Positions 11,469-21,048 of a stretch of DNA of 64,000 bases are shown here, one piece after another. Origin of the DNA: Corallococcus macrosporus. Lineage in GTDB: Bacteria > Myxococcota > Myxococcia > Myxococcales > Myxococcaceae. The notes beneath the pieces were generated by a model. The model was not told where the DNA came from and made no database searches. It saw only the letters and a program-made list of their open reading frames with translations. The position numbers and the translations under genes are program-made. How positions within the stretch are numbered: position 1 is the stretch's first letter; every line of letters starts with the position of its first letter. The DNA lies in the NCBI RefSeq assembly GCF_017302985.1, contig NZ_JAFIMU010000007.1, forward strand, positions 2,356,001 to 2,420,000, in the 5' to 3' direction.

Positions 11469-12779
11469 ATGGCTGGCTCCCGACCCCGCGTCCTCCTGAT
11501 TGCTGAGCTGTGCAACCCAGACTGGGTGAGCGTTCCCCTGGAAGGCTGGTCCCTGGCCAGGGCGCTCGCCGAGGTGGCGGACGTGCACCTGGTCACCCAG
11601 GTCCGCAACCGCGAGAACATCCTCAAGCAGGGGCTGGTGGAGGGGAAGGACTTCACCGCGCTGGACTCCACGCCGGTGGAGCGCCCGCTGGAGAAGGTGG
11701 GCGAGGTGCTGCGCGGCAAGGCGGGCGTGGGCTGGACGACGGCCACGGCGCTGAGCGTGCTGCCGTACTACTTCTTCGAGGAGCTGCTCTGGCGGCGCTT
11801 CGGGGACCGCATCCGCGCGAAGGAATTCGACGTGGTGCACCGCTACACGCCCATCTCCCCCACGACGCCCAGCACGCTGGCGGCGCGGTGCGCGGACGCC
11901 GGGGTGCCCTTCATCATGGGCCCCATGAACGGCGGCCTGCCGTGGCCCAAGGGCTTCGGGGACGCGCGCCTGCGCGAGCGCGAGTGGCTGAGCTACATCC
12001 GGGACGTCTACAAGCTGATGCCCTTCTACAAGTCGACGCGGCAGAACGCGGCGGCGCTGATGATGGGCTCTCGGGCGACGCGGGCGCAGCTGTCCCAGGA
12101 GTACCAGGACAAGGTGGTCTACATCCCGGAGAACGCCATCGACGTGCGCCGCTTCGGCAGCGCGAAGGCGGAGCCGCCGAAGCCCGGCGAGCCGCTGCGG
12201 GTGGCGTTCGTGGGGCGCTTCGTGCCGTACAAGGGCATGTCCATGCTCATCGACGCGGCGGCGCCGCTGGTGCGCGAGGGCAAGGTGCAGGTGGAGCTCA
12301 TCGGCGACGGCGCGGAGATGCAGAACCTGCGCGCGCAGGTGGCCAGGAGCGGGCTGGAGAGCGGCGTGACGTTCGCCGGCTGGGTGAAGCACCAGGAGCT
12401 GCAGGGCCGCCTGTCGAAGAACCACATCTTCGGCTTCCCGAGCGTGCGCGAGTTCGGCGGCGCGGTGGTGGCGGAGGCCATGGCGCTGGGGCTGGTGCCC
12501 ATCGTGATGGACTACGGCGGTCCGGGAGAGATCGTCAGTCCGTCCACGGGCTTCGCGATCCCCATGGGCACGCCGCAGGAGATCGTCGAGCGCGTGCGCG
12601 GGGTGCTGGAGAAGCTGGTCGCGGATCCGTCCGTGATTGGCCCCATGGGCGAGCGCGCGCGGGCGCGCATCTTCAAGCACTTCACCTGGAAGGCGAAGGC
12701 GGAGCAGGTGCTGGAGGTGTACCGCTGGGTCTCCGGCGAGCGAGGCCAGCCGGACTTCGGCATGCCGCTGGCGGACTGA
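11469..12779 (+). CDS. epsH: EpsH, family 4 glycosyltransferase
   Basis: The product is 436 aa with a GT-B fold. The C-terminal donor domain has RVAFVGRFVPYKGMSMLIDA (K-G loop) and SVREFGGAVVAEAMALGLVP, the EX7E motif, then DYGGPGEIV. N-terminal acceptor-domain features include MGPMNGGLPWPKGF. It is divergent from wzy and matches the wzy/epsH pairing of the M. xanthus locus. It probably adds one sugar of the EPS repeat unit. Confidence 0.87.
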   Translation: MAGSRPRVLLIAELCNPDWVSVPLEGWSLARALAEVADVHLVTQVRNRENILKQGLVEGKDFTALDSTPVERPLEKVGEVLRGKAGVGWTTATALSVLPYYFFEELLWRRFGDRIRAKEFDVVHRYTPISPTTPSTLAARCADAGVPFIMGPMNGGLPWPKGFGDARLREREWLSYIRDVYKLMPFYKSTRQNAAALMMGSRATRAQLSQEYQDKVVYIPENAIDVRRFGSAKAEPPKPGEPLRVAFVGRFVPYKGMSMLIDAAAPLVREGKVQVELIGDGAEMQNLRAQVARSGLESGVTFAGWVKHQELQGRLSKNHIFGFPSVREFGGAVVAEAMALGLVPIVMDYGGPGEIVSPSTGFAIPMGTPQEIVERVRGVLEKLVADPSVIGPMGERARARIFKHFTWKAKAEQVLEVYRWVSGERGQPDFGMPLAD

Positions 12780-12786
12780 GGGCGCG

Positions 12787-13206
12787 GTGAGCCCCTCCCT
12801 GCTCCAGCGCGCGGTCCGTGGCTTCGCGGTCTACGACCTGTGCGTCACGCTGCCGTTCGCCACGCCGTGGACCGCGGGCGCGATGCTGGGGGTCATGCGG
12901 TGGGTGCACGAGGGACTGGCGCCGGGCGGTGAGCCCATGCCGGCCTTCGCTCCCGTGCACCTGTTCTTCGTCGCCCTCTTCGGCGTGCTCGCCGTCATGT
13001 GGGCGCTGATTCGCATCCTCCAGCCCACCGCGCTGCATGGCGCCATCGACACGGTGGGCCGGGGGCTCGTTACCTCGTGGATGGTGCTCGTGCTCTCGCA
13101 GGGGGCGACGCGGATCCTTGGCGCGTTCCTCGTGATGGAGGCCGCGGGCATGTTCGTGCAGGGCGCGCTGCTGCTCGGCGCGCGGCGAGTCGCTGCGCCC
13201 TCTTGA
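12787..13206 (+). CDS. 4-TM membrane protein, copy 1 of a tandem pair
   Basis: The product is 139 aa from GTG 12787, 7 bp after epsH. It has four predicted hydrophobic helices and conserved signatures LCVTLPFATPWTAGAMLG, PVHLFFVALFGVLAVMWALI and GAIDTVGRGLVTSWMVLVLS. The next gene is a clear paralog with the same order of motifs, so this is a local duplication. I do not recognise a named family. Unlike copy 2, it has no MerR-type operator in front and is probably read with epsH. Confidence 0.75.
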   Translation: MSPSLLQRAVRGFAVYDLCVTLPFATPWTAGAMLGVMRWVHEGLAPGGEPMPAFAPVHLFFVALFGVLAVMWALIRILQPTALHGAIDTVGRGLVTSWMVLVLSQGATRILGAFLVMEAAGMFVQGALLLGARRVAAPS

Positions 13207-13216
13207 ACGGAGGCCC

Positions 13217-13247
13217 TTGCCTCTGCACCAAGGTGCAGGGGTTAGGG
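13217..13247 (+). promoter_or_regulatory. MerR-type promoter/operator with 19-bp spacer
   Basis: -35 TTGCCT (13217-13222) and -10 TTAGGG (13242-13247) are 19 bp apart, the over-long spacing typical of MerR-activated promoters. The spacer holds the dyad CCTCTGCACC-AA-GGTGCAGGGG (13220-13241), 10-bp arms with one mismatch. It aligns base for base with the layout of the mer operon promoter. A merR-type gene lies 3' in the same operon. The -10 ends 7 bp before the ATG at 13255, so the message may be leaderless. Confidence 0.8.
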
Positions 13248-13254
13248 TCTTCGC

Positions 13255-13695
13255 ATGAACCCTGATTCGTCCCTGCTTCGCCGTGTCGTCTTCGCCAGCG
13301 CGCTGTACGACTTCGTCGTCACCGTCCCCTTCGCCACGCCGTGGACCGCGCAGGCGGTGCTGTCGAACCTCCAGTCCGTGCACCAGGCGCTGGGGATGGG
13401 CGGTGATCCACTGCCCGCGTTCTCGTCCACGCACCTGTTCTTCGTGGCCCTGTTCGGCACCATCGTGACGCTGTGGTCCGTCGTGCGGCTCTTCCACCCC
13501 ACCGCGTTCAATGGCGCCATCGACACCGCGGGCCGGGCGCTGTTCTCCACGTGGATGGCGTGGGCCCTCACGCAGGGTGCGACGCGGGTGCTCGTGGGGT
13601 TCCTCGTGCTGGAGCTGGCGTGGATGTTCGCCCAGGGCGGTGCCATCCTCGGCGCCAGGAGGTGGCGTGGTGGCATCCCCGCGACGGCCCGTTGA
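13255..13695 (+). CDS. 4-TM membrane protein, copy 2 of a tandem pair
   Basis: The product is 146 aa with four hydrophobic helices. It shares with copy 1 the motifs VTVPFATPWTAQAVL, THLFFVALFGTIVTLWSVVR, FNGAIDTAGRALFSTWM and GATRVLVGFLVLELAW. The ATG at 13255 lies directly after a MerR-type promoter, and the 3' end overlaps the merR gene, so this copy is the likely target of that regulator. The function is not known; it might be a small transporter or membrane-stress protein. Confidence 0.78.
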   Translation: MNPDSSLLRRVVFASALYDFVVTVPFATPWTAQAVLSNLQSVHQALGMGGDPLPAFSSTHLFFVALFGTIVTLWSVVRLFHPTAFNGAIDTAGRALFSTWMAWALTQGATRVLVGFLVLELAWMFAQGGAILGARRWRGGIPATAR

Positions 13696-14125
13696 AGCAG
13701 GCCCCTTGCGCATCGGAGCGCTCGCCCGCGCGTCGGGCGTGAAGCTGTCCACGCTGCGCTTCTACGAGCGCCGCAAGCTGCTGCTGCCCATGGATCGCAG
13801 CGAGAGCGGCCAGCGGCTCTACGGCCCGGAAGCCGCCATCCGCGTGCGCTTCATCCGCCGCTCACAGGAGCTGGGCTTCACGCTGAAGGAGGTGTCCGCC
13901 GTCCTCGCCCTCACGGACCGGCGCGGCACCCCCACCCGAGACGTGACCCGCTTCGCGGAGGCCAAGGTGCAGGCCATCGACGCGCGCATCGACGACCTGC
14001 GCCGCATGCGCCGCGCCATCACCACGCTGATGGCCGAGGGCTTCTGCCCGCCGGACACCGTGTGCCCCATCCAGGCGTCACTCGGCGCGACGAAGCCCCC
14101 GGCGAAGCGGAAGCCCCGCGCCTGA
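13670..14125 (+). CDS. MerR-family transcriptional regulator
   Basis: The product is 151 aa from GTG 13670. AGGAGG at 13657-13662 sits 7 bp upstream and decides this start, which overlaps the 4-TM gene by 26 bp. The winged HTH is LRIGALARASGVKLSTLRFY then ERRKLLLPMDRSESGQRLYG. A dimerisation helix follows. Near the C-terminus FCPPDTVCPI resembles the Cys-containing metal-binding loop of CueR-type regulators, two residues shorter. It probably binds the dyad at 13220-13241 and activates its own operon in response to a metal or thiol stress (inference). Confidence 0.85.
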   Translation: MASPRRPVEAGPLRIGALARASGVKLSTLRFYERRKLLLPMDRSESGQRLYGPEAAIRVRFIRRSQELGFTLKEVSAVLALTDRRGTPTRDVTRFAEAKVQAIDARIDDLRRMRRAITTLMAEGFCPPDTVCPIQASLGATKPPAKRKPRA

Positions 14126-14130
14126 GCGCG

Positions 14131-15342
14131 CTACCGGCGCTCCGCCTCGCGCGTGGTGCGCACCCACTCGCCCTTCTTCTCCGCGCCGGGGCCGCGAATC
14201 ATCAGCCACACCTTCCACACCACGTAGATGGGCGCCCACGCCAGGTCCAACAGGCCGCGCGGGCCCACGCCGGACACCCACCAGCCGCGCAGCACGTACA
14301 GCGCCAGCGACATCAGACCGAACGACGCCAGCGCGGACGCCGCCACCGCCGTGCCGCCGGACAGCCACACCACCCCGGCCGCCAGCACCGAGCCCGCCAC
14401 CGTCGCCAGCACCAACTGGCTCAGGGGCGGCACCAGCACGTCCATGGACAGGTCCAGCAGCAGCCCGCTCTTCTGCTTCAGCGCGTCGCTCAAGAGCGGC
14501 CAGCCGTGCAGCTTGCGCATCTGCGCGCGGCCACCCTCCCAGCGCTGCCGCTGCGAGCGGCTCTGCTTCTCCGCCGTCACCATCTCGCCCAGCACCTCCG
14601 CCTCCCAGGCGTAGTGCACGCGGTGCCCCGCGCGCGCCAGGCGGATGCCGTACTCCAGGTCCTCCACCACGCTGAACGCGTCGTGCGGCACCTGCTTGAG
14701 CACCGCGTGCGTGAAGCACATGCCGTTGCCGCGCAGGCCGCAGGACACACCCAGCCGCTCGCGCCCCATGGAGCGCACGCGGTGGAACATGCCCAGGGCA
14801 ATGGTCATCAGCCGCGTGCGCCACGACGCCGTGGGGTTCATCACGCCGTAGTGCGCCTGCACGCCGTGCGCCCCGTCCTCCAGCCGGCGGGAGAACGCGT
14901 GCAGCAAATTCGAGGACACCACCGTGTCCGCGTCCACCACCACCACCGCGTCCGCGAAGCCGTCACGCTGGCTGCGCTCGAAGGCGTGCGCCAGCGCGTA
15001 GCCCTTGCCGCGCTTCTCCGCGTCCTGGCGCTCCAGCACCGTGGCGCCCGCTTCCCGCGCCTTCTCCGCCGTCTTGTCGGAGCAGTTGTCCGCCACGACG
15101 ATGATGCGCCGCAGGTGCGCCGGGTAGTCCACCGCGGACAGGTTCGCCACCGTCCGGGCAATGCCCAGCTCCTCGTTGTGCGAGGGGATGATGACGTCGA
15201 ACTTCCGCGCCGCCGGCGACGGCGGCACCGGCGCCGCCTTGCGCCCCGACAACAGCGTCAGGAGCAGCAGGTAGCCGCAGCCCACCACCACCGGCAGCAG
15301 TCCCACGCACAGCGCCACGTCCACCCAGGTCCAGACCGTCAC
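14131..15342 (-). CDS. epsU: EpsU, membrane family 2 glycosyltransferase
   Basis: The product is 403 aa from GTG 15342; longer readings would run into epsV. An N-terminal membrane helix (LCVGLLPVVVGCGYLLLLTL) precedes the GT-A domain: FDVIIPSHNEE, VVVVDADTVV (DxD-type metal site), VVEDLEYGIRLAR and the QRQRWEGGR (QxxRW-like) motif of processive GT2 enzymes. Two or more C-terminal helices follow. It should act at the inner membrane on lipid-linked EPS precursors. It follows epsV by 58 bp and converges on the merR gene. Confidence 0.87.
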   Translation of the reverse strand: MTVWTWVDVALCVGLLPVVVGCGYLLLLTLLSGRKAAPVPPSPAARKFDVIIPSHNEELGIARTVANLSAVDYPAHLRRIIVVADNCSDKTAEKAREAGATVLERQDAEKRGKGYALAHAFERSQRDGFADAVVVVDADTVVSSNLLHAFSRRLEDGAHGVQAHYGVMNPTASWRTRLMTIALGMFHRVRSMGRERLGVSCGLRGNGMCFTHAVLKQVPHDAFSVVEDLEYGIRLARAGHRVHYAWEAEVLGEMVTAEKQSRSQRQRWEGGRAQMRKLHGWPLLSDALKQKSGLLLDLSMDVLVPPLSQLVLATVAGSVLAAGVVWLSGGTAVAASALASFGLMSLALYVLRGWWVSGVGPRGLLDLAWAPIYVVWKVWLMIRGPGAEKKGEWVRTTREAERR

Positions 15343-15400
15343 GACAGTGTCACCCCCGCGCACGCGCCGCCCTTCCCAGGACGGCCGCGCGCTCGAATCC

Positions 15401-16897
15401 TCAGCGCCGTTCCAGCTCCGCCAGCACCGGCAACTTGAGCAGCCGCTCCACCTGCCACTTTTCCAGCACCCGGCGGCGCAGGATGTCCAACGCCACCGCC
15501 GCGAACACCGCCAGCGCCACCCCGCCCACCACACCCGCGATGGCGATGAGCTTCGGGTTCGGCTTGGACGGCTTCTCCGGGAAGAGCGCCGGCAAGAGCA
15601 CGCTGTAGCGGTGCTTCATCGAAACCTTGGAGATCTCCAGCTCCGTCTGCGCCTGATCCAACCGGCGCAGCTTCTCCTGGTGCCGCATCACCACCATGCG
15701 CATCCGGTCCGTGGCCACCGCCACCTCCGGATCATCCGGCGTGCCCAGCATCGCGCCCGCCATCGGGCCACCGAAGCCCGCCGCGCTCGAGGCCTCCGTC
15801 GCGGAGTCCACGTCCGTGCCGCCCATGCGCAGGTACTCCTGGATGAGCGACTGCTCCTCGGAGCGCAGGGACGTCAGCTGCGGCGAGTCCGCCTGCATCG
15901 TCGCCACGCGCTGCTCCAGGTCGACGATCACCGGGTGCTGCGGGGAGAAGACGACGCGCTGCTCGGCCAGCTGCGCGCGCAGCTCCGTGAGGCGGCGGCT
16001 GCGGAACTCCTCCACGTCGCGGATGGCGCGGCGCTTGGCCTGCACCAGGAACTTCAGCTGCGCGAGCGCGTGGTCCGTCTGCAACAGCGCCTGCCGCGCG
16101 CTGGCCTGCTTGGGGTCCGCTTCCTTCTTCTTGCGGCGCGCGTCCGCGGCCTTCACCGCGCGCTCCAGGTCGGAGATGGCCTGCTTGATGTTCGCGGCCT
16201 CGTTGGCCACCTGGCCCTGGAGGATGTTCACGGACTCGGAGATGGCGCCCATCTCCGACTCGTGGCGCATGTCGAGGAAGTTCTGGGACGCGGCCTCCAC
16301 GATGTTGAAGGCCATCTGCGGGTCGCTCCAGTCCACCCCGATGGTGACCGTGCCGCTGCCTCCTTCCGCCATCACCGTGAGGCTGGTCTCCAGCATCGCG
16401 ATGAGCGCCTCCTCCTTGTCCTCGTCGGACATGGGGGGCGGGGCCTTCTTCAGGTACTGCTCCTTCATGCGGCTCATGGGCGAGCGCATGTGGTCCCAGT
16501 ACTCGATGAGCTTCGCGTGCTTGATGACGGACTTGAGGTTGCCCCGGCTGAGCACCATCTCCCACGCGGCGCGCGTGGGCTGATCCGCCTCCACGGGGAT
16601 GGAGCGGCCCGGGTTCACCAGCGAGGAGATGATGAGGTTGCGGTACGTCAGCATCCGCGTCTCGACGTGGTACTTGCGCGGCATCAGCTTGGCCGCCAGC
16701 GAGCCCAGTCCGCTCATCACCGCGATGATGCACAGGCCCAGGAACCAGTGCCGGAAGATGGCCCTGCGCACGAAGCCCAGCCCGTCGAACAGGAAGCCCC
16801 AGTCGATGAGGTCGGCCGGCGCGTTCGTCTCCTCGCGCTCGGGGACGTACGGCGGGGGCGCGGCGGGGCGCGGCGTGCGCGGGGCGGGCGTGGTCAT
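15401..16897 (-). CDS. epsV: EpsV, Wzz/Wzc-type polysaccharide co-polymerase without kinase domain
   Basis: The product is 498 aa. It has a proline-rich cytoplasmic N-terminus, TM1 (FRHWFLGLCIIAVMSGLGSL), a large periplasmic region with Wzz-type start and long coiled coils (residues about 170-330), TM2 near the C-terminus (LIAIAGVVGGVALAVFAAVA), then only about 30 residues ending LLKLPVLAELERR. That tail is where a Wzc protein would continue into its tyrosine kinase, so this is a kinase-less PCP. Start ATG 16897 overlaps the epsW stop (ATGA). It should set chain length and link Wzy to the EpsY export pore. Confidence 0.88.
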   Translation of the reverse strand: MTTPAPRTPRPAAPPPYVPEREETNAPADLIDWGFLFDGLGFVRRAIFRHWFLGLCIIAVMSGLGSLAAKLMPRKYHVETRMLTYRNLIISSLVNPGRSIPVEADQPTRAAWEMVLSRGNLKSVIKHAKLIEYWDHMRSPMSRMKEQYLKKAPPPMSDEDKEEALIAMLETSLTVMAEGGSGTVTIGVDWSDPQMAFNIVEAASQNFLDMRHESEMGAISESVNILQGQVANEAANIKQAISDLERAVKAADARRKKKEADPKQASARQALLQTDHALAQLKFLVQAKRRAIRDVEEFRSRRLTELRAQLAEQRVVFSPQHPVIVDLEQRVATMQADSPQLTSLRSEEQSLIQEYLRMGGTDVDSATEASSAAGFGGPMAGAMLGTPDDPEVAVATDRMRMVVMRHQEKLRRLDQAQTELEISKVSMKHRYSVLLPALFPEKPSKPNPKLIAIAGVVGGVALAVFAAVALDILRRRVLEKWQVERLLKLPVLAELERR

Positions 16898-17301
16898 GCG
16901 CTGCCCCGGGGAGCGGCGGTCTTCAGCACCTGGCGCACGCGCTTCTCCAGCTCCTCGGGCGTGAAGGGCTTGCCCAGGTAGCCGTTGGCGCCGGCCTCCT
17001 CCGCGTACGCCTTGTCCTCCGGCAGGTTGCGCGCGCTCACCATCAGCACCGGGATGTGCGCGATGGCGGGCGTGCGGCGGATGTGCTCGCAGACGTCGTA
17101 GCCGGACACGTCCGGCAACGTCAGGTCCAGGCACACGAGGTCCGGCTTGAGCTCGCCCGTCTTCAGGTACTCCATGGCGGCCTTGCCGTTGGGCTGCTCC
17201 ACCACGTTCTTCACGCCCATCTGCTGGAGCATGTCACGCAGCATGACGCGGAACATCGGAGAGTCCTCCACGAGGAGGACGGTGAGCTGGTTGAGCTCCA
17301 T
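16894..17301 (-). CDS. epsW: EpsW, single-domain response regulator
   Basis: The product is 135 aa and is a stand-alone CheY-like receiver with no output domain. It has acidic E12-D13, phospho-acceptor D59 (LVCLDLTLPD), S/T at VLMVSARN and K111 in YLGKPFTPEEL. ATG 17301 is chosen because AGGAAAGG lies upstream; a GTG at 17328 overlapping the preceding stop (GTGA) is possible and would add nine residues. It sits between epsX and epsV, so it probably adjusts EPS assembly by protein contact. Its cognate kinase is not in the window. Confidence 0.88.
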   Translation of the reverse strand: MELNQLTVLLVEDSPMFRVMLRDMLQQMGVKNVVEQPNGKAAMEYLKTGELKPDLVCLDLTLPDVSGYDVCEHIRRTPAIAHIPVLMVSARNLPEDKAYAEEAGANGYLGKPFTPEELEKRVRQVLKTAAPRGSA

Positions 17302-17324
17302 CACGTCTGACGCCTTTCCTTCCC

Positions 17325-17501
17325 TCACCCGAACCCGTACTTGGGCACGAGGACGAGCACGCCATATGCGTACGCCACGTTGAAGAGGGCCACCCAGAGG
17401 ATGGCCTTCTTCATCCCCCGCCAGGGGTGCGCATCGCGCGCGGCCGCTCCGGGCAGCGCGATGGTGGCAACGAGGACGGACAAGAGGATGAGCTTCGCCA
17501 T
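17325..17501 (-). CDS. 58-aa membrane protein between epsX and epsW
   Basis: An ATG at 17501 opens a 58-residue frame ending in TGA at 17327-17325. It begins MAKLILLSVLVATIALPGAA, a signal or membrane helix, then has a basic amphipathic stretch (HPWRGMKKA), a second hydrophobic helix (ILWVALFNVAYAYGVLVLV) and ends PKYGFG. It is in frame order with the eps genes, 10 bp after epsX and just before epsW. An ORF at the same place exists in the M. xanthus locus as I recall it. The function is unknown; it may be a small export-complex subunit. Confidence 0.65.
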   Translation of the reverse strand: MAKLILLSVLVATIALPGAAARDAHPWRGMKKAILWVALFNVAYAYGVLVLVPKYGFG

Positions 17502-17511
17502 GTCGGGAGCC

Positions 17512-18840
17512 TCAGAGGATACCCGTTTTCTGGACCGTCAGTCCCAGCGTCGCGGACCACACCGTGCGGGCCGCCTCCACGTCGGGCGAGCGAGTCCATG
17601 CCGTGCGGGTGTCCACCTCCAGGGCCACCCACCGGTTCAACGTCCAACCCGCGCCCACACCGCCCACCACCTGCCGGTCCCCCACGGCCCCGCCAACCGC
17701 GAAAGCACTGCCTGCGGTCCCGGAAAGCCGGAAGCGCGGCCCCAGCGCCCAGGTGCCGTTCAGCGTCAGGTCGGCCCTTGGGTAGACGAGCCCCGTCAGC
17801 CGGTCCACGAAGGGCGTCACCCGCGCGGAGAGCCGGCCGTTGAAGTCCGCCACCCGCGACGGCACCCGGTGGGACACCGCCAGCGTCAGGTCCGGGAGCA
17901 GGTCCAGGCGCTGCGCCGGGTCCGCCACCGGGGTGTCCCCGACCTGAAGGGTCGTCAGCCGCCGGCCACCTGACGCGGTGGATGCCGGGGTGACGTCCGG
18001 CGTTTCCGGGTCGTCCGTGGCGGCGTCCTCCGTCGCGCGGACGGAGTAGGCCACGCCCACGCCCACCCCGGCCTCCAGCGACGTGCGCCGGTCCAGCCGG
18101 TGCGTCCAGGCGCCGGTGAAGGTCGTCACCGTGGCGCGCGCGCCGGTGGAGAAGCGCGAGTCCGTGAAGCCCACCGTGGTGGCCAGGGTGTGCCGGGGCG
18201 CGGGGGCGTACCCCAGGGAGAGCTGCGCGCGCGGGCCGTACTGGAAGGGCACCGCCTCCTTCGCCGCGTCGTCCAGGCCGCCGCTGGCGGAGAAGCCCGC
18301 GCTGCCGGACAGCCGCCAGCCCGGGCCCAGCCACACCGTCTCCGCCGCCAGCGTCGTCAGCGAGGACAGGAAGAACACCGTGTCCACGCCCTCCGGCAGC
18401 GGCTGGATGGGCACGTCCGGGACCGGCGTGTCCCCGGGCACCGTCGGGTCGTCGCCCAGGCCGCCGCCCAGGGGCAGGTTGGTGAAGAGGTTCACCTGGC
18501 CCAGCACGAACTCCTGGGTGCCGTGCAGGGTGAGGCCGCGGGACGGCCGCCAGTCCCCCAGCAGGCGCCCCACGTGCTGCACCTCCGTGCGCGGGTTGGT
18601 GGTGGCCTCGCGGAAGGAGATGCGCGGCGCGTACTGCACCTCCGCCACCGCGCTGCCGTCGTCGTACTTCAGGCCCACCGTGGGGACGATGTCCATGTCC
18701 GCCGCCACGGGGGCGACGGGCTCACCCGTGGCCTGCTGCTCCATGGAGCGCGCGCGGGTGTCCACGCGGGCCGCGGTGCTGTACGTCACGGCGGAGGAGG
18801 CCACCTCCAGCCACAGGCTCGCGAGGGCCGCGTCCAGCAT
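17512..18840 (-). CDS. epsX: EpsX, outer-membrane beta-barrel of the EPS export translocon
   Basis: The product is 442 aa. Most of the sequence is alternating amphipathic strands with Gly/Thr/Arg-rich turns, for example TVGLKYDDGSAVAEVQYAPR and GPRFRLSGTAGSAFAVGG, ending SATLGLTVQKTGIL. The N-terminus is short and weakly signal-like. It starts 4 bp after epsY. In M. xanthus the equivalent barrel pairs with a short OPX protein to form a composite export channel, and EpsY here is also short, so the same arrangement is expected. Confidence 0.8.
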   Translation of the reverse strand: MLDAALASLWLEVASSAVTYSTAARVDTRARSMEQQATGEPVAPVAADMDIVPTVGLKYDDGSAVAEVQYAPRISFREATTNPRTEVQHVGRLLGDWRPSRGLTLHGTQEFVLGQVNLFTNLPLGGGLGDDPTVPGDTPVPDVPIQPLPEGVDTVFFLSSLTTLAAETVWLGPGWRLSGSAGFSASGGLDDAAKEAVPFQYGPRAQLSLGYAPAPRHTLATTVGFTDSRFSTGARATVTTFTGAWTHRLDRRTSLEAGVGVGVAYSVRATEDAATDDPETPDVTPASTASGGRRLTTLQVGDTPVADPAQRLDLLPDLTLAVSHRVPSRVADFNGRLSARVTPFVDRLTGLVYPRADLTLNGTWALGPRFRLSGTAGSAFAVGGAVGDRQVVGGVGAGWTLNRWVALEVDTRTAWTRSPDVEAARTVWSATLGLTVQKTGIL

Positions 18841-18844
18841 CCGG

Positions 18845-19480
18845 CTACTCCACCACCACCACGTCGCCGGGGCGCAGACGGAAGGTCGCCGCGCGGCCCT
18901 CGCCGCGGATGATGTCCTCGTAGCTCACGCGGATGCGCGTGGGCTGCTCGGCCTGCGGGTCCTCCCGGCGCAGCACGAAGATGCGGTCGCGGTGGGCGTA
19001 GTCCGTGAAGCTGCCCGCGGCGCCCAGCGCCTGCAGCAGCGTCGCGCCCGGGTCCAGCACGTGCGCGCCCACGTTCGCCACCTCGCCCAGCATCGTCACC
19101 GACATGGGGCGCGCTTCCTCCAGCGACACCGTGACGACGGGGTGGTTGATGAAGTCCTTGAGCCGCGTCTGGATCTGCTGCGCCAGCAGGGCCGGCGAGT
19201 GGCCCGCGGCCTCCACGTCGTCCAGGAACGTGAGGCTGATGTGGCCGTCCTCGCGCACCTTGGCGCGCGTGGTGAGCGCCTCCTGGCCAAACACCTTCAC
19301 GTTGAGCACGTCGCCGGGGACGATTCGGTACTCCGCGTCCGACGCGACGGGCTTCTCCTGGTAGTCGTTCACCCAGGTGTACTTGCCCAGGCCGCCGCAC
19401 GCGGGCAGCAGCATCAGCAGCCCGGCGCACGCGAGGGCGCGGGAGGCGGGACCGCGGAATCGGGACGGGCGGGACGGCAT
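18845..19480 (-). CDS. epsY: EpsY, short OPX polysaccharide export lipoprotein
   Basis: The product is 211 aa from ATG 19480 (GAGGAG upstream); a GTG at 19498 that overlaps the wzx stop is an alternative. The lipobox is LLMLLPAC. A poly-export domain follows (YRIVPGDVLNVKVFGQEAL, then VREDGHISLTFLDDVEAAG), then one SLBB domain (VTMLGEVANVGAHVLDPGAT). It ends RLRPGDVVVVE with no C-terminal membrane helix or barrel, unlike Wza. The outer-membrane pore must therefore come from another protein, most likely EpsX. Confidence 0.9.
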   Translation of the reverse strand: MPSRPSRFRGPASRALACAGLLMLLPACGGLGKYTWVNDYQEKPVASDAEYRIVPGDVLNVKVFGQEALTTRAKVREDGHISLTFLDDVEAAGHSPALLAQQIQTRLKDFINHPVVTVSLEEARPMSVTMLGEVANVGAHVLDPGATLLQALGAAGSFTDYAHRDRIFVLRREDPQAEQPTRIRVSYEDIIRGEGRAATFRLRPGDVVVVE

Positions 19481-19494
19481 GGCGCTGGGGCTCC

Positions 19495-21048
19495 TCACGC
19501 GGCGGGGGCGGCCGGCACGGCCACCTCCGCTCCATTACCACCGCGCTGGCGCGCCATGCGCACGACCTGCAGCAGTTCCGCGGGGCGCACCGCGCCGGTG
19601 CCCAGCACGCCGGCCACGTAGGTGGCGGCCGTCAGCCCCAGCCGGGGCCACGGCGCCAGGCCCGCGCCCAGGAGCACGCGGTCCAGGGCCACGCACACCC
19701 CGCACACCCCGGCCGTCTTCGCCACCATGACCAGCGAACGCCGGTCGAAGGAGTTCCTTCCCATGCGGCCGAGGAAGAGCACCGTGACGATGACCTCCGT
19801 CAGGAACATGGACAGCGCCGTGGCGGTGGCGCCGCCGGACGGGCCAATGCGCCCGTACAGCCACGGGATGAGCGCCAGGTTGAACAGCGGGTTCACCACC
19901 GCGCCCATGGTGGCCGCCAGCGTCACCCACCACTCCTTGTTGGACATGGTGAGCCAGATGCTGCTGACCATGGTGACGTAGGCCATCACGAAGATGGGGG
20001 ACAGCACGCGCAGGGGCAGCGCCGCGGGCTCGAAGCCGGGGCCGCACATCAGGCGCACCCACAGGTCCGCGCCCAGCACCATGGCCATCATCACCGGCAC
20101 GGTGAACGCGAGCACGCCCTCCAGCGAGCGGCGCGTCAGGTGCGACAGCTCCTGCGGAGAGCGGGCCGCCGCGCGCGACATCATGGGCATCAGCACCCAG
20201 CCGAAGATGGGGGAGATGAGGAACGTGAGGCCCGCGATGCTGAACGCGCCGCCGTACCAGCCCACCTCCTCCTTCGACGCGAGCTTGCCCAACAGCGACA
20301 TGTCCGTGCGGCCGTTGCACGCCAGCGCCGCCGCGGTGAGGAAGAACGGCAGGCACGCCTTCATCACCTTCTTCGTCGCGGCGATGTCGATGCGGAACTT
20401 GAGGTTGAGGTGCTCCTTCGCCAGCTTCCAGCTGATGATGAGCTTCACCGCCTCCGACAGCACCATGGGCACGGCCAGCCACTGCAGGCCCACGCCGAAC
20501 GCGGCCATCAGCGCCAGGCCGCCGCCCCAGACAATCTTGGTGATGACGTTGGAGACGGACAGGCCCGCGACCTTGCCCTTGGAGTGCAGCAGCGCGGCCA
20601 TGGACGCGTTGACGACGATGAGCGACTGGGCCACCGCGAACCACTGCACCAGGTGCTGCACCTCCGGGGGCTCGCCGGTGTGGTGGAGCACCAGCGCCAG
20701 CGCCACCATGAGGACGAGCGTCATCGCCAGGCGCAGCAGCATGGTGGTGCCGAAGAAGTCGCTCGCGTGGTCCGGGCGGACGGGCACCTCCTTGCGGATG
20801 TACGTCTCCAGACCCAGGTTCGTGGCCACGAAGAACGTGGCGGCGAACGCCTCCGACCAGTTGAAGTAGCCGAACGCCTCCGGGCCCAGGTAGCGCGGCA
20901 TCAGCGCGCGGATGCCCAGCGCGATGGCGTACGTCACCATCAGCGAGCCGCCGAGCTGCAGGGTGCTGCGCACCGCGCCGCGCACTTCGTTCGCACGGGC
21001 GCCGTCGTCGGCTTCAGCGGAGGGGGAGATAGGACTGTTCACGGTCAT
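19495..21048 (-). CDS. wzx: Wzx flippase for the EPS repeat unit
   Basis: The product is 517 aa with 12-14 predicted membrane helices of the MATE/MVF polysaccharide-transporter type. It starts with a charged cytoplasmic N-terminus, then STLQLGGSLMVTYAIALGIR. Charged residues within helices (for example KIVWGGGLALMAAF) are as in Wzx. It should flip undecaprenyl-linked EPS units to the periplasm. It lies after epsZ, separated by an intrinsic terminator, and before epsY, matching the M. xanthus order. Confidence 0.9.
   Translation of the reverse strand: MTVNSPISPSAEADDGARANEVRGAVRSTLQLGGSLMVTYAIALGIRALMPRYLGPEAFGYFNWSEAFAATFFVATNLGLETYIRKEVPVRPDHASDFFGTTMLLRLAMTLVLMVALALVLHHTGEPPEVQHLVQWFAVAQSLIVVNASMAALLHSKGKVAGLSVSNVITKIVWGGGLALMAAFGVGLQWLAVPMVLSEAVKLIISWKLAKEHLNLKFRIDIAATKKVMKACLPFFLTAAALACNGRTDMSLLGKLASKEEVGWYGGAFSIAGLTFLISPIFGWVLMPMMSRAAARSPQELSHLTRRSLEGVLAFTVPVMMAMVLGADLWVRLMCGPGFEPAALPLRVLSPIFVMAYVTMVSSIWLTMSNKEWWVTLAATMGAVVNPLFNLALIPWLYGRIGPSGGATATALSMFLTEVIVTVLFLGRMGRNSFDRRSLVMVAKTAGVCGVCVALDRVLLGAGLAPWPRLGLTAATYVAGVLGTGAVRPAELLQVVRMARQRGGNGAEVAVPAAPAA

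Follow-up and report, generated by a model that had tools for sequence, protein, structure and literature searches.

Background

In proteobacterial mer operons the promoter has a 19-bp spacer and a 7-4-7 palindrome, TCCGTAC-N4-GTACGGA, and in ZntR promoters the spacer is 20 bp, according to the excerpted text of PMC1526738. The same excerpt characterizes the metal-sensing subfamily of MerR proteins by the presence of at least two of three metal-binding cysteines, and the combination of two cysteines and Ser77 in CueR is tied to monovalent copper in the excerpt of PMC9909328. Leaderless expression is already known for a MerR-type system, CvkR, as stated in an excerpt of PMC9938897. The word 'leaderless' was not found in the excerpted main text of a Cappable-seq study of Myxococcus (PMC8844925). 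No publication describing the operon presented here was found in the literature, judged by title or abstract start.

Corallococcus macrosporus is a predatory soil bacterium. A stretch of 64,000 nucleotides from its 9.8-Mb genome, here called the window, contains a gene for a small membrane protein, fourB, followed by a gene for a MerR-type regulator, merR (Table 1). Positions 13217-13255 are very probably the single operator-promoter of a fourB-merR operon that has an autoregulated activator of the MerR type and a leaderless message. The MerR switch is conserved, ordinary and of an already known kind; the leaderlessness of the target gene, unusual but conserved, is probable.

Table 1. Features of the fourB-merR locus, in window coordinates
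Feature	Position	Strand	Remarks
fourA, paralogue of fourB	12787..13206	+	upstream of fourB; 56% identity; without dyad
-35 element TTGCCT	13217..13222	+	TTGMCY in 21 of 21 distinct GCACC-type operators among the matches listed
MerR-type operator dyad CTGCACC-AA-GGTGCAG, CTGCACCAAGGTGCAG	13223..13238	+	within the spacer; one site in the genome; conserved
-10 element TAGGGT	13243..13248	+	20-bp spacer; A2 and T6 in 21 of 21, T1 in 16 of 21 distinct operators among the matches listed
Predicted transcription start	13255	+	at or within 1 nt of the A of ATG, from the 6-nt distance to the -10
fourB, target gene	13255..13695	+	small membrane protein, 146 aa, five predicted helices
AGGAGG, ribosome-binding site of merR	13657..13662	+	inside fourB; duplex energy -11.6 kcal/mol with the anti-SD 8-mer
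merR, MerR-type regulator	13670..14125	+	GTG start; overlaps fourB by 26 nt

Results

Operator and promoter

The elements are placed in the 48 bases that separate fourA from fourB, in the order TTGCCT, CTGCACC-AA-GGTGCAG, GGGT, TAGGGT, CTTCGC and the ATG at 13255, with fourA ending 11 nt before the -35 element. They have the form of promoters of the MerR superfamily, with a dyad inside a spacer of 19-20 bp. An earlier sequence-only reading had described a dyad of 10 bp; it is real, with perfect pairing over 7 bp around a 2-nt centre (7-2-7) and nine of ten pairs over 10-bp arms. The two central bases vary between relatives (21 distinct GCACC-type operators among the matches listed).

The same reading had fitted the elements without gaps to mer-type promoters, with TTAGGG (13242-13247) as -10 after a 19-bp spacer and 7 nt before the ATG. 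These letters are present and the operator is of the MerR class, but the letters fixed across relatives belong to a hexamer one base later, TAGGGT in the window, and give a spacer of 20 bp that is invariant among all operators passing the operator score. The spacer, the 7-2-7 arms and the half-site differ from proteobacterial mer, so that 13217-13248 is not a mer operator of that kind and has the layout of E. coli zntA instead. 'Mer-type' is right for the class and wrong for the subtype. T1 of the -10 is replaced by C or G in five of the 21 distinct operators among the matches listed, and other genera have a stronger -35, TTGACC/T, than the TTGCCT of Corallococcus. No sigma-70-like site with 16-18-bp spacing and no Rfam match were found in 12700-14300.

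The layout is rare. In the window a 7/7 dyad after TTG[AC]C occurs once, whereas 200 first-order Markov sequences average 0.015 such sites, and at least five dyad pairs combined with a -10 and an ATG occur once, compared with 0 in 200. In the 9.8-Mb genome CTGCACCNNGGTGCAG has one site, as has the full layout, and the reversed control pattern has none. A search of the window for the 16-mer alone, tolerating 3 mismatches, shows that such matches are not rare (2 against 1.16 expected, both being one site on two strands); significance belongs to the full layout and not to this loose match.

Conservation

The sequence-only reading had proposed a search for the same dyad in front of homologs in related genomes. 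Of 96 family genomes, 26 have the -35/dyad pattern with at most one mismatch, each at a single place, and all of these places lie at a fourB-type gene; the reversed control was never found. The membrane gene itself is present in 30 of the 96, four of which lack the pattern. Two of these (G055 and G059, loci L026 and L030) have no merR within the fetched flank, one (G024, L025) has kept a merR with 83% identity while its sole membrane gene is fourA-like and without operator, and one (G088, L038) has an operator version with two mismatches.

Operators were counted from 109 rows, eight of which failed the operator score (L025, L026, L030, L050, L054, L090, L113, L114); L113 has the TTGACC and TAGCGT layout yet just 3 dyad pairs. 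The rows overlap because many genomes occur in two collections, and distinct sequences were therefore counted. Among the matches listed, the 21 distinct GCACC-type operators come from Corallococcus, Myxococcus/Pyxidicoccus, Archangium-type bacteria, uncultured Myxococcales and Plantibacter, the last being one Actinomycetota member among otherwise Myxococcota operators. The closest named relatives for the fourB-type gene, among the matches listed, are Corallococcus species.

The operon is surrounded in 11469-19498 by genes that appear exopolysaccharide-like from their reading frames, presumably encoding glycosyltransferases, a chain-length-type protein and an export-type protein.

Start of the fourB message

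As a rule, transcription starts 7 nt past the last base of the -10. The distance from the -10 to the ATG is 6 nt in five and 7 nt in 16 of the 21 distinct GCACC-type operators among the matches listed, which would place +1 at the A of the ATG or one base before it. The proximity of the -10 to the ATG, pointed out in the sequence-only reading, thus predicts a leader of 0-1 nt, and the spacing is conserved in all 21. An SD core (GGAG, GAGG or AGGA) is found near the start in none of these 21; among the matches listed for a sister branch (see below), 38 of the 48 operators with a leader have one and the 5 leaderless ones have none. The anti-SD duplex gives a less clear-cut answer than the SD motif: GGGGTTAGGGT upstream of fourB reaches -6.0 kcal/mol, compared with -11.6 for merR, and values of -5 kcal/mol or lower are found for 9 of 19 distinct GCACC-type upstreams compared with 35 of 45 leadered ones among the matches listed. 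The best reading is that the fourB message probably starts at its start codon. Leaderless starts do not look like a general trait of the region: among 101 window reading frames of at least 150 codons, many of which are not genes, none has TANNNT 6-7 nt ahead of its first ATG (fourB itself is too short for this count).

No dyad was found at any of ten scored fourA copies, and TANNNT stands 5-8 nt before the start codon in seven of them, which suggests a MerR-independent leaderless promoter. The copies concerned are the one in the window, which starts with GTG and lacks TANNNT, and those at L011, L013-L015, L018, L026 and L030.

Regulator and target proteins

For merR the GTG at 13670, and not that at 13667, was taken as the more likely start, since the corresponding codon is ATG in four relatives (L040, L046, L047, L049). 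The product scores above the cut-off for PF13411 (59.9 bits), PF09278 (64.5) and PF00376 (42.5) in Pfam; by these domains it is a member of the MerR superfamily, with an N-terminal helix-turn-helix and a MerR-DNA-bind domain. The nearest solved structures are MerR and CueR. All NCBIfam equivalog cut-offs were missed: the best score was for MerR TIGR02051 (100.9, cut-off 150.85), followed by ZntR (86.9/167.95), CueR TIGR02044 (78.5/147.4), CadR-PbrR (73/151.45) and SoxR (60.4/116.9). Two C-terminal cysteines, as in metal-sensing regulators, are found in 18 of 18 co-directional regulators among the matches listed, all with a recognition helix without Asp. The cysteine loop is C-X5-C in the window regulator and C-X6-C in some relatives. 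The third cysteine of the divalent sensors MerR, ZntR and CadR is missing: structure-hit alignments place Thr at the position of MerR Cys82 and CueR Ser77, and none of 15 aligned regulators has Cys at the Cys82 position.

The fourB model (pLDDT 85.5) has five predicted helices, one of them short and probably amphipathic. Positions invariant in 40 aligned rows include Y18, D19, T23, R78, D90, R94, E120 and Q127; several are charged residues in predicted helices, and there is no conserved cysteine. This lack of residues of the metal-ligand type is mild evidence that the protein is not a simple metal transporter. Pfam gave nothing above cut-off for the window copies, for seven relatives or for 40 aligned members (tabulated for member 1; best E among members 0.012), and a sequence search of solved structures gave nothing better than E 0.11. 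A weak fold match to TMEM35A (E 0.66, the best value in Foldseek; Z 7.8) and the best VIA-align hit (CD53, Z 8.7) are in the unspecific range for helical bundles. TMEM35A is a DoxX-like protein; hhalign of the fourB family against DoxX_2 gave a probability of 0.1% (17 of 18 listed loci, one odd-length locus being omitted).

A sister branch with divergent merR

A scan of one genome per species in 84,980 species gave 79 loci from the best 80 of 94 matches. Within this best 80 of 94 there is a sister branch in Burkholderiales, Pseudomonas, Kitasatospora, Amycolatopsis, Kutzneria and others, in which merR is transcribed divergently, the half-site resembles GGAG and the message is mostly leadered with an SD. 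The leader is 24-41 nt in 47 of 53 distinct operators, 80 nt in one and 6-8 nt in five (among the matches listed). At least five loci are leaderless (L064, L074, L084, L104, L109), as is L118 (GTG start, 8 nt), so that leaderlessness occurs in single lineages inside the GGAG-type form. Among the matches listed, the divergent regulators have [RK]D in the recognition helix in 54 of 56, L117 having Glu and L106 a split frame, and one cysteine in 55 of 56, L056 being over-read; the residues of both regulator groups were counted by eye from the rows.

The regulator tree, made without L056 and L106, and the membrane-protein tree have the same two-way split. In the first regulator tree the two groups stood apart, but a tree joining them could not be rejected (p-AU 0.354; six long-branch rows excluded), and we do not claim that the membrane-protein family recruited MerR on two separate occasions.

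The divergent merR of L106, from Pseudomonas oryzihabitans KNF2016, lies in two reading frames, as from a broken copy or a sequencing error. L215, on the 8.3-kb Antarctic Pseudomonas plasmid pGLE121P2 (NC_021211.1), has the membrane gene and a divergent merR, and their presence on a small plasmid indicates that the module can move. Plasmid records contain one fourB relative, annotated as a hypothetical protein.

Discussion

By analogy with the MerR class, a dimer of the regulator encoded by the second gene would bind the dyad in the over-long 20-bp spacer, and RNA polymerase would be unable to engage both hexamers as long as inducer is lacking. Inducer on the two C-terminal cysteines would make the dimer distort the DNA, and the promoter would fire. 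Transcription would begin at the fourB ATG or no more than 1 nt from it and give a leaderless message for the membrane protein, and merR would be translated from the internal AGGAGG. The sequence-only reading had placed the regulator 3' in the same operon, and the 26-nt overlap bears this out. Autoregulation is implied by this position directly 3' together with the missing sigma-70-like site; with both genes on one induced message, induction would raise regulator and target together. The inducer may be a thiophilic metal, perhaps a monovalent one, or a compound that reacts with thiols. With two cysteines and no third, as in CueR, a monovalent thiophilic metal is a sensible starting guess, and a thiol-reactive signal would fit as well.

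The MerR site might be real while fourB is expressed mainly from a longer message started upstream. Read-through from fourA, which ends so close to the -35, would be one source; the AGGG at 13244-13247, within the Corallococcus -10, could be a weak SD of such a message, and the duplex of -6.0 kcal/mol agrees with this. However, the G positions of the -10 vary among the matches listed (TACGGT, TAGCGT, TAGCCT, TAACGT, TACAGT) and A2 and T6 never do, and the same layout is kept in loci with no fourA-type gene directly in front (e.g. L012, L020, L021), which makes a longer message unlikely as the main source of fourB. Still less probable is that the regulator purely represses and fourB is derepressed once MerR leaves the DNA. 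The site overlaps the promoter spacer and binding alone could block transcription, but a plain repressor has no need of a long spacer, and the invariant 20 bp is the layout of activated MerR promoters in the excerpts of PMC9909328 and PMC1526738. A functionless chance palindrome, to which only the commonness of the loosely matched 16-mer would lend weight, is refuted by the conservation across genera and opposed by the genome uniqueness and the Markov counts; its probability is close to nil.

Beyond the window, the loci may represent a module that occurs in several phyla in two co-diverged forms and encodes inducible membrane stress proteins of a new family, a tentative reading that we hold to be nearly as probable as its opposite. 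One form would have the GCACC half-site, two cysteines, merR downstream and no leader, and the other the GGAG half-site, one cysteine, a divergent merR and mostly a leader. If true, the two forms are a natural experiment on why a stress-gated message loses its leader, and the leaderless and leadered pairs in one family would allow a direct test of the role of the leader for such a message. For an unnamed membrane-protein family, an inducible switch is now also predicted, down to the exact operator. The two half-site types track two recognition-helix types in the set, and half-site recognition is thus testable by swaps.

Comparison with known systems

The closest layout is that of the E. coli zntA promoter, which has TTGACT, CTGGAGT-CG-ACTCCAG, 4 nt and TATCCT. 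The 20-bp spacer, the 2-nt centre and the position of the dyad are identical to those of fourB. The GGAG half-site of zntA is that of the sister branch, whereas the fourB operator has GCACC, and unlike the predicted fourB message, that of zntA carries a leader containing a GGAGG site. The zntR gene lies apart from zntA according to the excerpt of PMC1526738, whereas merR adjoins fourB, and the third cysteine of ZntR-type divalent sensors is Thr in the window regulator.

CueR and HmrR resemble the regulator in having two C-terminal cysteines and no third, and hmrR is usually the second gene of an actP-hmrR operon (excerpt of PMC1526738), as merR is here. However, the loop is C-X7-C in E. coli CueR, and the two-cysteine C-X5-C loop of the window regulator (C-X6-C in some relatives) differs from those of the best-studied sensors. 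The copA promoter has a 19-bp spacer and a TTCC half-site compared with 20 bp and GCACC at fourB, and the target of CueR and HmrR is a P-type ATPase, which fourB is not. The MerR of mer operons gives the best NCBIfam score, although under its cut-off, and the second-best match to a solved structure (5crl), but Cys82 of Tn501 MerR is absent.

For the leaderless start the nearest parallel is the MerR-type CvkR of Anabaena CRISPR transposons, for which leaderless cvkR expression was tested by experiment, according to the excerpt of PMC9938897. There, as the same excerpt describes, regulator and target are both leaderless and flank one spacer, and CvkR is a repressor. At the locus described here, by contrast, fourB heads the operon and merR has an SD.
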